Source: Flavobacterium pectinovorum
GTDB taxonomy: Bacteria; Bacteroidota; Bacteroidia; Flavobacteriales; Flavobacteriaceae
DNA length: 64,000 nucleotides
Reading direction: 5' to 3'
Assembly (NCBI RefSeq): GCF_006438875.1
Contig: NZ_RCZH01000005.1
Coordinates: 124,001 to 188,000 of the forward strand
Numbering within the stretch: position 1 is the stretch's first letter; every line of letters begins with the position of its first letter. This document shows positions 33,013 through 36,442 of this stretch, piece by piece. Made by a program: the position numbers and the translations under genes. The notes under the pieces are model-generated. The model did not search any database and had not been told where the DNA came from. It saw only the letters and a program-made list of their open reading frames with translations.

Positions 33013-34053
33013 ATGTATAAATTGATAATTCGTCCGATACTTTTTTGGTTTGATCCAGAAGAAGTACATTATTTTACTTTTTCATTTGTTAAATTCATTT
33101 CAAAAATACCGGGAGTTTCGTCAATAATCAAATCGATTTACGAAGTAAAAGACAGTCGTTTAGAGCGTGAAGTTTTCGGAATTAAATTCAAAAATCCGGT
33201 AGGTCTTGCAGCAGGATTTGATAAAGATGCAAAACTATATAAAGAGCTTTCTGATTTTGGTTTTGGATTTATAGAAATAGGAACCGTAACGCCGGTAGGT
33301 CAGGAAGGAAATCCTAAAAAACGTTTATTCCGTTTAAAAGAAGATCAGGCAATTATTAACCGAATGGGTTTTAATAACGGAGGTGTTCTTGAAGCCGTAG
33401 AACGTTTGAAAAAGAATTCAGGAGTTTTGATTGGCGGAAACATTGGAAAAAATAAAGTAACGCCAAACGAAAATGCTGTTGATGATTATGTCATTTGCTT
33501 TGATGCTTTGTTTGATCATGTAGATTATTTTGTTGTGAATGTAAGTTCGCCAAATACGCCAAATTTAAGGGCATTGCAAGACAAAGAACCTTTGACAGCT
33601 TTATTGCAGACCTTACAAAACAGAAATGTAGAAAAGCAAAAAACAAGTACTCAGAAAATAAAACCAATACTTTTAAAAATTGCTCCGGATCTTACTGATG
33701 AGCAATTACTGGATATTATTGATATTGTAAAAACGACTCAGATTGCGGGCGTAATTGCAACAAATACTACTATTTCAAGAGACGGGTTGCAATCTGAAAA
33801 TCAATCTGAAATGGGAGGATTGTCAGGAAAACCATTAACAAAACGTTCGACAGAAGTGATTCGTTTCCTTTCGGAAAAAAGTAATAAAGCATTCCCAATA
33901 ATTGGAGTAGGAGGAATACATTCTGCAGATGATGCCATCGAAAAATTAAATGCAGGAGCAAGTCTTGTACAATTATATACCGGATTTATTTATGAAGGTC
34001 CGGCATTAATAAAAGCGATTAATAAAAAAGTTTTAAAACAATTGAAGCAGTAA
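33013..34053 (+). CDS. pyrD: Dihydroorotate dehydrogenase (quinone), class 2
   Basis: 346 residues. The N-terminal extension (1-45, including [21 protein letters not shown]) is the membrane-associated quinone tunnel typical of class 2. Core FMN-barrel motifs: [68 protein letters not shown] with the catalytic Ser, [42 protein letters not shown]. It oxidises dihydroorotate to orotate in pyrimidine synthesis, passing electrons to menaquinone. Its last 21 bp overlap the convergent DUF3307 gene. Confidence 0.96.
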
Positions 34054-34749
34054 AACCTGTACGATTAATGCCGTTGCAATAGCAGTTCCAAAACTAAGTA
34101 ACGTACCAATTAAAACATATTCGGTAAGTTTTCGGTCTTTGGCTTCTTTTAAATCTCCAAACCTGAAAATAGATTTGGCTGCCAATAAAAATCCGATAGC
34201 TTCAAAATGTCCCGTGAGGATAAAACAGAATACAAACAGACGTTCTAATACGCCAATGTAGTTTCCTGCTTTGGCAAGAGAATTGTCGTCGTGACTGTTT
34301 TGAGTTTCGGGATTCCAGATCGAAATAATCGTTTTAATGATAATAGAAGTTGGTTTTGTGATGAATAAAACTCCGGTAATCAAAATCCAAAATTGATTAT
34401 TGAACCATAAAAAGTTTATCGTTTCACCTTTATACAGAAACACAACGCCAACTAAAACTAAAACGTGCATAATTTGGTCAACTATAAACCAAGTGCGTTT
34501 GGTGTTTTCTTTCTGAAAATTCAGTTTGACTAAATCAATAATTCCATGAGTTACGGCAATTAAAATGGTGTAAGGTATAAACTGAATTTCTCCAACCAAA
34601 ATTGCTGCTAAAACTCCGTGAAGGAGAATATGAAGATACAAGTAAATACTTTTGTGTTTTTTAGCTTCTTTGTCAGCGACCCAGGAATTGGGCTGCCAGA
34701 TAAAATCTCCAAGTAAATGCGCTAAAAGTAGTTTTATAAATAAAATCAT
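34033..34749 (-). CDS. DUF3307 polytopic membrane protein, SatD partner
   Basis: 238 residues with about six or seven hydrophobic segments. Conserved family marks: [17 protein letters not shown] near the N-terminus, [43 protein letters not shown] and [11 protein letters not shown], then [12 protein letters not shown]. Polar residues (His, Asp, Glu) embedded in the helices (HxxGD, THxxxD, DQxxH) suggest a membrane-embedded active or metal site. Its start overlaps the satD stop by 4 bp (ATGA), so the two are translationally coupled. The function is unknown; the gene pair is conserved in several phyla as I recall it. Confidence 0.85.
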
Positions 34750-35360
34750 GGGGCGGTAAGTTGTTTTATTTGTTTTCTAAAATAACGATCTAAATTTTGT
34801 ACCAAATCAAATTGAGCCCTTTTTTGTCGTCGGCTTACAGCAGCTTGATTGATACCTAATTTTTGTCCTAATTCTTCTTGTGATAAAGTTGGGTTTTCTA
34901 TGGCAACAGCAACAAATTCTGCCGATTGTGCAAGCCAGTTGTCCATAAAAGTCAACGCCAATTGTATCATTAAATTCAATTTTTCATCAATATCAACATC
35001 GTCAGTTCGCATGGCAAGAGTTACTTTTTGTTTCTTTAAAGTTTCAAAAAGTTCTCCTGAGTTTATAAAAGCAGATCCATTACTCTCCGATATTTTTTCG
35101 GCATCATGAGTTTTATCTCCAAAACCAATACTCATTCTCGCATCAAGTTTTATAGCTCTCAAATGTGCTTTTATTAGTATGGCAGACCATAAAGCATCTT
35201 CGGGATTTTTAATTTCAACTTGAAATTCGTCACCTCTATAAACTTCCCATTGACTTGGCGTTGCTCCAAACGGAGCTAAAATGTTCTTCAAGCCTTCAAC
35301 CCAATCTTTGGATTTTTGTTTTCTCGAGTCAATTATGTCACCTGTAATTACACTAGTCAT
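34746..35360 (-). CDS. satD: SatD-family protein: cyclase-like N-terminal domain plus C-terminal HTH
   Basis: 204 residues. The family name comes from the streptococcal acid-tolerance operon; the biochemical role is unknown. What I see: VITGDIIDSRKQKSK (5-19), WEVYRGDEFQVEI (38-50), a helix with NPEDALWSAILIKAHLRAI (52-70), LDARMSIGFGDK (72-83) and SNGSAFINSGELFETL (93-108). This order mimics class III nucleotide cyclases (DIxGS/T, GDxxxxxF, RxGIxxG, GxxVnxAxRL), with Asp8 and Asp44 as possible metal ligands. Residues 157-182 (PTLSQEELGQKLGINQAAVSRRQKRA) are a helix-turn-helix. Coupled to DUF3307; preceded by the half-site array at 35397-35500. The cyclase likeness is inference. Confidence 0.85.
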   Translation of the reverse strand: MTSVITGDIIDSRKQKSKDWVEGLKNILAPFGATPSQWEVYRGDEFQVEIKNPEDALWSAILIKAHLRAIKLDARMSIGFGDKTHDAEKISESNGSAFINSGELFETLKKQKVTLAMRTDDVDIDEKLNLMIQLALTFMDNWLAQSAEFVAVAIENPTLSQEELGQKLGINQAAVSRRQKRAQFDLVQNLDRYFRKQIKQLTAP

Positions 35361-35367
35361 AACAATT

Positions 35368-35375
35368 CAAATATA
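35368..35375 (-). promoter_or_regulatory. -7 box TATATTTG for satD, near-leaderless
   Basis: Exact TAnnTTTG match. Its last base (35368) is 7 nt before the satD ATG, so the transcript begins at or just before the start codon. The -33 region coincides with the first half-site of the array. Confidence 0.65.
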
Positions 35376-35396: not shown

Positions 35397-35500
35397 TATT
35401 ACAAATATACGTAATATATTTTAGTATTACTTTTTTTGGTAATATTTGTAATTATTACTTAATTGTGTAATAATATAAAGTATTACCATTTTTAGTAATA
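35397..35500. promoter_or_regulatory. Array of eight alternating 6-bp half-sites at exact 14-bp period
   Basis: TATTAC starts at 35397, 35425, 35453 and 35481; GTAATA (its reverse complement) starts at 35411, 35439, 35467 and 35495. All eight are perfect. They form four 20-bp palindromes TATTAC-N8-GTAATA separated by 8-bp spacers (28-bp period); the N8 and spacer sequences all differ, so only the half-sites are conserved. The array lies between divergent satD and HMG-CoA lyase genes and abuts the satD -7 region. It is best read as an operator or activator array, perhaps for SatD's own helix-turn-helix. Confidence 0.85.
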
Positions 35501-35575: not shown

Positions 35576-36442
35576 TTGAACAAAGAAATCAAAATTATCG
35601 AATGTCCACGTGATGCTATGCAAGGTATCAAAACTTTTATTCCCACAAAAAATAAGGTTACCTATATACAGGCCTTGCTTCGTGTAGGGTTTGATACCAT
35701 TGATTTTGGGAGTTTTGTATCTCCCAAAGCCATTCCGCAAATGCAGGATACGGCTGAGGTTTTGGCACAGCTTGATCTTTCGCAAACCACCAGCAAATTG
35801 CTGGCAATAATTGCTAATACGCAAGGCGCACAATTGGCGGCAGAGCATGAACCTATTCAATATTTAGGATTTCCTTTTTCTATATCTGAAAACTTTCAGA
35901 TGAGAAATACGCATAAAACAATTGCAGAATCATTGGTTACACTCGAAGAAATTCTTGAAATCGCTGATAAAAAAAACAAAGAAGTCGTAACCTATCTTTC
36001 AATGGGTTTCGGGAATCCTTACGGAGATCCGTGGAATGTTGAAATCGTTGGCGAATGGACTGAAAAATTGGCAGGAATGGGTGTGAAAATATTATCGCTC
36101 TCAGACACCGTTGGCAGTTCTACACCGGAAGTCATCACGTACCTTTTTTCTAATTTAATTCCAAAATACCCGCAAATCGAGTTTGGAGCGCATTTGCATA
36201 CCACTCCAACCAGTTGGTTTGAGAAAGTAGAAGCAGCATCAAATGCAGGTTGTACACGTTTTGATGGCGCTATTCAGGGATTTGGCGGATGCCCAATGGC
36301 AACTGATAAACTGACTGGAAATATGCCTACAGAAAAATTGATTTCTTATTTTACAGCCAATAAAAAAGTAACAGGTTTAAATTCTCTAAGTTTTGAAAGT
36401 GCTTATAATGAAGCATCAAAATTGTTTGGGAAGTTTCATTAG
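35576..36442 (+). CDS. Hydroxymethylglutaryl-CoA lyase
   Basis: 288 residues. It cleaves HMG-CoA to acetoacetate and acetyl-CoA, the last step of leucine degradation. ECPRDAMQGIKTFIPTKNKV is the N-terminal (E/D)xxPRDxxQ motif with catalytic Arg; VGFDTIDFGSFVSPKAIPQM, SLSDTVGSSTPEVI and FGAHLHTTPTSWFEKVEAAS with metal-binding His residues, and DGAIQGFGGCPMATDKLTGN with the catalytic Cys follow. The start is TTG at 35576: an in-frame stop lies two codons upstream and the first ATG (residue 15) falls inside the catalytic motif. A weak -7-like TAACTTTT is at 35521-35528. Confidence 0.92.
   Translation: MNKEIKIIECPRDAMQGIKTFIPTKNKVTYIQALLRVGFDTIDFGSFVSPKAIPQMQDTAEVLAQLDLSQTTSKLLAIIANTQGAQLAAEHEPIQYLGFPFSISENFQMRNTHKTIAESLVTLEEILEIADKKNKEVVTYLSMGFGNPYGDPWNVEIVGEWTEKLAGMGVKILSLSDTVGSSTPEVITYLFSNLIPKYPQIEFGAHLHTTPTSWFEKVEAASNAGCTRFDGAIQGFGGCPMATDKLTGNMPTEKLISYFTANKKVTGLNSLSFESAYNEASKLFGKFH

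Follow-up and report, generated by a model that had tools for sequence, protein, structure and literature searches.

Helix-turn-helix (HTH) repressors that regulate their own genes from cooperative operator arrays are a general class, of which Lrp and the phage repressors are examples. The locus described here, within a window of 64,000 nucleotides of Flavobacterium pectinovorum DNA, resembles them in that SatD, an HTH protein, appears to bind repeated palindromes in its own promoter; the sites lie in the promoter region of satD itself and are conserved in relatives, as required of an autoregulated operator. Unlike the known repressors, the satD array alternates strictly in 14-bp steps, can contain as many as ten exact half-sites, apparently serves one operon, and has a clade-specific half-site on a fixed geometry. 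The SatD family is named after the sat operon of Streptococcus mutans. No description of DNA binding by SatD was found among the matches listed in the SatD/DUF3307 literature, a search that left some streptococcal SatD papers uncovered.

A second likeness is to the class III nucleotidyl cyclases (Ma1120, Rv1264, and Rv1900c), whose fold is seen in residues 1-137 of the SatD model; in contrast to them, SatD carries its HTH at the C-terminus, and there are no data on its activity. As for the approach, the available part of PMC5045206, which deals with the MerR family and cites LacI, indicates that likely contacts can be recognised from the mutual information that protein columns share with columns of the binding site. 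Differently from what that part describes, each satD carries its own array, such that protein-site pairs come directly, and the half-sites differ while the geometry stays. An autoregulated HTH operator is a kind of system already known; the satD system is set apart by its geometry, a partner domain resembling a cyclase, and a family-wide readable pairing, and no description of it was found among the matches listed.

The half-site array and its linkage to satD

The array at 35397-35500 (no strand assigned) was read directly from the window. It is composed of eight 6-bp half-sites in alternating orientation at 14-bp steps, TATTAC starting at 35397, 35425, 35453, and 35481 and GTAATA at 35411, 35439, 35467, and 35495. 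The sequence-only reading had claimed eight perfect alternating half-sites separated by differing 8-bp stretches, and both points were borne out, as all eight positions are free of mismatches and the seven 8-bp spacers are all distinct. The half-sites form four palindromes, likewise without strand: TATTAC-AAATATAC-GTAATA (35397-35416), the innermost and nearest to satD, which holds a -7 box on the satD strand, followed by TATTAC-TTTTTTTG-GTAATA (35425-35444), TATTAC-TTAATTGT-GTAATA (35453-35472), and TATTAC-CATTTTTA-GTAATA (35481-35500). When the window is described by a first-order Markov model, the probability that seven more half-sites follow the first is ~3e-25, a value to be taken as an order of magnitude only because the choice of motif and period is ignored. 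Across 62 GTAATA-type loci with 478 half-sites, the half-site positions hold 1.45-1.98 bits of information and the spacer positions 0.07-1.03 bits; the spacer inside palindromes has an A/T core.

TATTAC-N8-GTAATA occurs exactly four times in the window and exactly four times in the whole genome (6,459,996 bases), always in the array, and a control pattern read backwards occurs three times in the genome. With up to one mismatch allowed, the genome-wide search returned 72 places versus 81 for the control pattern; thus the search that had been suggested for this palindrome found no excess away from satD, and a wider SatD regulon in this genome was rejected on these counts.

We then surveyed 150 genomes of the same genus with a four-half-site pattern (up to three mismatches) and split them by hand according to their SatD match, which 68 of them had. 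The pattern was found in 48 genomes, and the control pattern in none among the matches listed. It was present in 42 of the 44 genomes with a close SatD (E 1.3e-59 or better), and the expectation that related genomes carry the array beside satD was therefore met; it was present in 0 of 24 genomes with a more distant SatD and in 6 of 82 without a SatD match. Among the matches listed, the array adjoins satD in 26 of 27 SatD genomes, and in the remaining one (G1085) array and satD are at the ends of different contigs. As for the two genomes with a close SatD that lack the pattern, G1018 has a contig that breaks off ~46 bp upstream of satD, and G1094 carries a GGAATA array made up of six TATTCC/GGAATA half-sites with a 14-bp period.

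Arrays without satD were sought by inspecting four of the six genomes that have the pattern and no SatD match (G021 and G1104 were not included). G1118, G1103, and G1090 contain one similar three-mismatch sequence each, which is not array-like; G1070 contains a single two-mismatch place with no satD within the 5 kb read, and was discarded as an array lacking satD. A degenerate GTAATA-type place was noted at ~2420-2475 of locus L243, from a genome without a SatD match, where the surrounding ORFs look phage-like. Four loci of the genus with a distant SatD (L016, L017, L018, and L021) show CGATA-type half-sites upstream of satD; since the distant-SatD genomes use this type, at least two operator types exist in one genus.

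In three Flavobacterium genomes (L009, L149, and L074) an insert places the array ~180-190 bp further from the ATG than usual, and the array and its distal -7-like box stay together despite it. Due to this displacement the three loci had initially been scored as lacking a usable array. The insert lies at ~1290-1460 in L009, at ~2780-2960 in L074, and upstream of satD in L149; that of L009 contains a small inverted repeat (cgtcccgaagtttcgggatcgggac).

Geometry and half-site types in the Bacteroidota

For the phylum, 242 loci were fetched, SatD was found in 239, and 221 were kept after removal of duplicates and of two short upstream regions. The geometry scan covered 13 periods (9-21) in two orientations, alternating or direct. 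The 14-bp alternating geometry gave the best score in 120 of 221 loci and the highest mean score, 29.0, followed by 14 bp direct with 23.1, and all other combinations of period and orientation stayed at or below 20.2; 60 shuffled upstream regions gave 17.8 ± 3.0, the largest being 24.6. Scores above the 99% point of Markov-shuffled upstream regions were reached by 145 of the 221 loci, including L009 and L111, which passed through a spurious consensus. A palindrome search recovered 36 further loci of the 221, with TATAAG-N8-CTTATA palindromes. Neither array form was found within 220 bp upstream in 40 of the 221 loci; most of the 40 are distant homologues, and L074 and L149 are also among them. 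Distant relatives of SatD from outside the class (L225, L228, L229, and L232-L241), with a longer HTH of the PSRQAIGDSL type, showed no 14-bp array above threshold in the 220 bp.

The 14-bp alternating geometry is retained at satD genes elsewhere in the Bacteroidota, where the half-site is clade-specific; the types found are GTAATA, as in the window, and GTAACA, GGAATA, CTTATA, CTAATA, CAGATA, CATATA, ACGATA, CCGATA, and ACCAAT. The array scan favours ATA at half-site positions 4-6, such that the constancy there is partly built in. When exact half-sites were measured in 71 Flavobacterium-type loci, the spacing was 14 in 181 of 181 cases inside TATTAC-N8-GTAATA and in 133 of 135 between palindromes, and in the CTTATA-type loci the step from palindrome to palindrome was 29 bp in 30 of 34 intervals. 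Given this strict spacing inside palindromes and the 29-bp step between those of the CTTATA type, the palindrome is likely the dimer unit, as far as can be judged from DNA sequence, and neighbouring units may be able to slip relative to each other. A half-site distance of 14 bp corresponds to 1.33 turns, which is unusual for one dimer on one face of the DNA.

Covariation of the half-site and the recognition helix of SatD

The recognition helix of SatD comprises residues 170-181 (INQAAVSRRQKR; 34818-34853, minus strand), of which 172, 173, 174, and 177 covary with the half-site. Covariation was measured as the mutual information of SatD columns with half-site bases, summed over positions. Residues 174, 173, 177, and 172 were the four top columns of ~198 at 70, 60, and 50% clustering, and the fifth, G32, lies outside the helix. 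Position by position, columns outside the helix were sometimes first or close to first, as was L186 for position 2 with 90% clustering. The 36 CTTATA-type loci entered the covariation set through the palindrome search, and L111, L157, and L140 (odd consensus) and L027 (no helix) were left out; L009, with a spurious GGGACA, was also dropped from the ranking and from the residue-base table. On re-inspection, L140, with TCGAAT and an A at residue 172, and L157, with TACAAT on the opposite strand and a K at this residue, turned out to be real arrays. Like the ACCAAT arrays of L022-L024, they combine AT at positions 5-6 of the half-site with A or K at residue 172; their omission did not favour the case for covariation.

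In the table, which takes one locus per 90% cluster, position 1 is G in 35 of 37 loci with R at residue 177, C in 19 of 22 with E and in 24 of 25 with Q, and A in 9 of 9 with G, whereas K has no single partner (G in 6, A in 6, T in 1). At residue 174, A accompanies T at position 2 (44 of 48), N accompanies A (8 of 11), and S accompanies C (30 of 45), while at residue 172 a Q is paired with T at position 5 (109 of 110) and an R with C (2 of 3). Preferences of Gln for A, Arg for G, and Glu for C are familiar from protein-DNA contacts, and two observations agree with them: Glu is paired with C, and where Arg replaces Gln at 172, G replaces A on the facing strand.

We also compared disjoint pairs of loci. 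Residue 177 differs in 32 of 43 pairs with different sites versus 7 of 43 identity-matched pairs with the same site (p 4e-8), followed by residues 173, 171, 186, and 174 in that order; L186 and N171 hence rank above 174, 172 is outside the top 12, and one combination of two clades recurs in several of the 43 pairs. Two natural switches were found as well. One Flavobacterium clade has the helix changes N171K/Q172R together with a change from GTAATA to GTAACA, residues 165/166 also changing, and in G1094 R177K is the sole helix difference from INQAAVSRRRKR, accompanied by a change from GTAATA to GGAATA. When the whole site was predicted from the nearest neighbour within the training set, the helix reached 0.57 versus 0.49 for the N-terminus at 70% clustering, 0.55 versus 0.55 at 60%, and 0.36 versus 0.39 at 50%; as the helix is no better than the N-terminus at the last two levels, ancestry is only partly controlled.

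A prediction rule was written down before held-out loci were scored. Of 84 new loci, 80 had a detected array; the four without one, and L266 and L251, with at least 90% identity to training, were excluded from the count. For the 78 loci below 90% identity, the whole six-base site was correct in 49 when predicted from the helix, in 35 from the N-terminal domain, and in 12 from the commonest site. The site type of 8 of the 78 was already known before scoring, and without these the counts were 42 of 70 for the helix and 28 of 70 for the N-terminal domain. The two predictions disagreed in 30 loci, none of them among the 8, with the helix right in 16 and the N-terminus in 2; the binomial p of 0.0013 assumes independent loci, and many of the held-out loci are related to each other. 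Counting one locus per distinct helix, the helix was correct in 20 of 41 and the N-terminus in 11 of 41, the disagreements being 9 versus 0 in 20. Fifteen held-out loci whose contact residues had been seen in training had another site, mostly one base off and often CTAATA/ATAATA.

The SatD and DUF3307 proteins

The proposed binder of the array is encoded by satD (34746-35360, minus strand), which specifies a protein of 204 aa. It belongs to PF16264 with 30.8 bits (Pfam cut-off 29), and does not qualify for the AsnC/Lrp HTH family PF13404, for which its 19.6 bits are below the Pfam cut-off of 27. By sequence, the comparison of SatD with solved structures gave nothing better than E 0.12, a tblastn search for SatD in phages gave no match at E 0.01 (plasmids were outside this search), and the sole PADLOC match was a weak one in the HTH region (PDC-S05, E 0.0036). 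An AlphaFold2 model built from 20 Flavobacterium sequences has a pLDDT of 62.9, with residues 171-185 under 50. In this model, residues 1-137 (34950-35360, minus strand) have a nucleotidyl-cyclase-like fold, matching class III adenylyl cyclases with a Foldseek probability of 1.00 to 5d0g (best E 1.9e-3) and a VIA Z of 10.4 to 1y10 (121 residues, rmsd 3.4); ferredoxin-like and PII-like proteins are not far below (Z 8.4-9.7 over ~75-80 residues). The N-terminal domain hence models as a cyclase fold, with the reservation that the model has a low pLDDT and the Foldseek E is weak. D8 is conserved in 258 and D44 in all of 260 SatD sequences; judged from this conservation alone, without superposition on a cyclase active site, they may correspond to the two metal-binding aspartates of class III cyclases. 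SatD does not have the GG(D/E)EF motif of GGDEF diguanylate cyclases: the window protein reads RGDEFQ, residue 42 is R in 97% of the sequences, and of the 260 sequences 123 carry E and 119 carry S at residue 45.

The gene downstream (34033-34749, minus strand) encodes a DUF3307 membrane protein (PF11750), and its start overlaps the satD stop (ATGA), an overlap kept in 51 of 55 Flavobacterium loci. Among array loci whose downstream sequence was long enough, 174 of 176 have a DUF3307-like ORF, as do 42 of 43 loci that lack an array. Among 19 Flavobacterium sequences of this protein, H11, D15, H40, H44, H68, D72, D91, and H95 are invariant, which could suggest a membrane metal enzyme. The protein has a further match in phrog_2470 (E 1e-13), a family of phage membrane proteins in the 'moron' category. 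No solved structure was matched by sequence up to E 1, and the structure model (pLDDT 54.2) is too poor for use.

Alternative explanations and direction of control

The proposal that the array serves the HTH of SatD itself came from the sequence-only reading, and is now supported by the linkage to satD, the absence of genomic excess, the helix covariation, and the held-out prediction, all of which, like the array and its conserved geometry, were computed. Based on the covariation of the half-site with the recognition helix and on the held-out prediction, SatD very probably binds its own operator, direct binding being inferred in the absence of binding data. We consider it highly improbable that some other DNA-binding protein occupies the array and SatD is merely adjacent. 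Shared ancestry alone would indeed give some correlation between satD columns and half-site, but it is in the recognition helix that the four top covarying columns lie, the helix outdoes the N-terminal domain by 16 to 2 where their held-out predictions differ, the residue-base pairings resemble the preferences mentioned above, and the genome has no excess of such palindromes elsewhere. That the array is a mobile or replication-related repeat element, and no operator at all, is hardly tenable: the regular direct period of 28 bp would suit it, but the spacers diverge while the half-sites persist, the array accompanies satD, and the half-site changes with SatD. The array sits between satD and a divergent HMG-CoA-lyase-like gene (35576-36442, plus strand), whose additional control had been suggested. 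All 55 Flavobacterium loci examined have this gene in the 3 kb flanking satD; however, no such gene is seen in 67 of the 80 array loci available with flanks of 1.5 kb, and a divergent-strand TAHHTTTG box at or beyond the distal array end was found in only 9 of 69 loci, such that its control, be it additional or the main role of the array, is unsupported and appears quite unlikely.

Returning to SatD as the binder of the array, the question remains whether it represses or activates its promoter. The -7 box consensus TAHHTTTG and its spacing were taken from the available part of PMC6847099. Two boxes TATATTTG precede satD on the minus strand, a proximal one at 35368-35375, with a predicted start within ~3 nt of the ATG (leaderless), and a distal one at 35402-35409, which fits the consensus and has a predicted start at ~35397 and a leader of ~37 nt. 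The array had been placed at the -33 position of the -7 box, and this geometry is right for the proximal copy (read 35375-35368), but the second copy (35409-35402) is inside the innermost palindrome. Of 69 GTAATA/GTAACA-type loci, 53 have a -7 box within the innermost palindrome. Only 18 of 72 rigid arrays of other types have a TAHHTTTG box there, and in 50 of these 72 the array end is at most 25 nt from the ATG. From these two counts, 53 of 69 and 50 of 72, repression is favoured over activation; given SatD binding, we hold autorepression to be likely, an inference from the positions of sites and boxes without expression data. The earlier alternative of activator or repressor is in this way narrowed and not closed, since an array upstream of the proximal box is also compatible with an activator. 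Such a SatD would recruit RNA polymerase beside the -33 region of the proximal box. Of the 69 GTAATA/GTAACA-type loci, 66 have a proximal box at -9 to -16 relative to the ATG, and that of the window is 21 bp downstream of the start of the array. We find activation unlikely, as no clear -33 motif is seen by eye in the window, SatD on the innermost palindrome or so close to the ATG would block the polymerase, and the proximal box implies a leaderless mRNA. In the available parts of two transcriptome studies, this is a minority class: PMC6847099 gives an average leader of 33 nt, with leaders of 10 nt or less being 13% of those predicted, and PMC9723704 gives 5.5% of leaderless mRNAs.

Proposed mechanism and significance

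In the mechanism that we propose, SatD binds the array and the array serves the satD-DUF3307 operon as its operator. Each 20-bp TATTAC-N8-GTAATA palindrome would be bound by the C-terminal HTH domains of two SatD subunits, whose recognition helices would read the half-sites through residues 172-174 and 177, and further dimers would fill the adjacent palindromes cooperatively at 28-bp steps; both the two subunits per palindrome and the cooperativity are inferred. SatD on the innermost palindrome would cover the -7 box and exclude RNA polymerase, and SatD would thereby limit the expression of itself and of DUF3307. The nucleotidyl-cyclase-like N-terminal domain probably carries a signal, a nucleotide or an oligomeric state, that would release or tighten the array. 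As for a nucleotide signal in particular, the chances seem to us even, the idea being inferred from the model with neither cyclase activity nor nucleotide binding backed by data. Taken as a whole, an operator of satD-DUF3307 bound cooperatively by an autorepressing SatD with an N-terminal signal domain is an explanation that we regard as probable.

A more far-reaching idea, which we put forward only as speculation and with more doubt than trust, is that SatD is a nucleotide-gated transcription factor whose cyclase-fold domain controls how an ordered SatD chain assembles on the 14-bp alternating operator, the family being a natural recognition-code library. If true, the matched operator of each genome would make the SatD family a natural library for a testable amino-acid-to-base code. 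The matched protein-operator pairs and the switches of a few residues (R177K; N171K/Q172R) make the co-evolution of HTH specificity and site directly testable, and the fixed 14-bp geometry with varied half-sites could offer orthogonal repressor-operator pairs for Bacteroidota genetics. With the binding proposed here, a widespread gene family of unknown function would have a DNA target and a likely mode of action assigned to it, together with a signal domain that can be tested.
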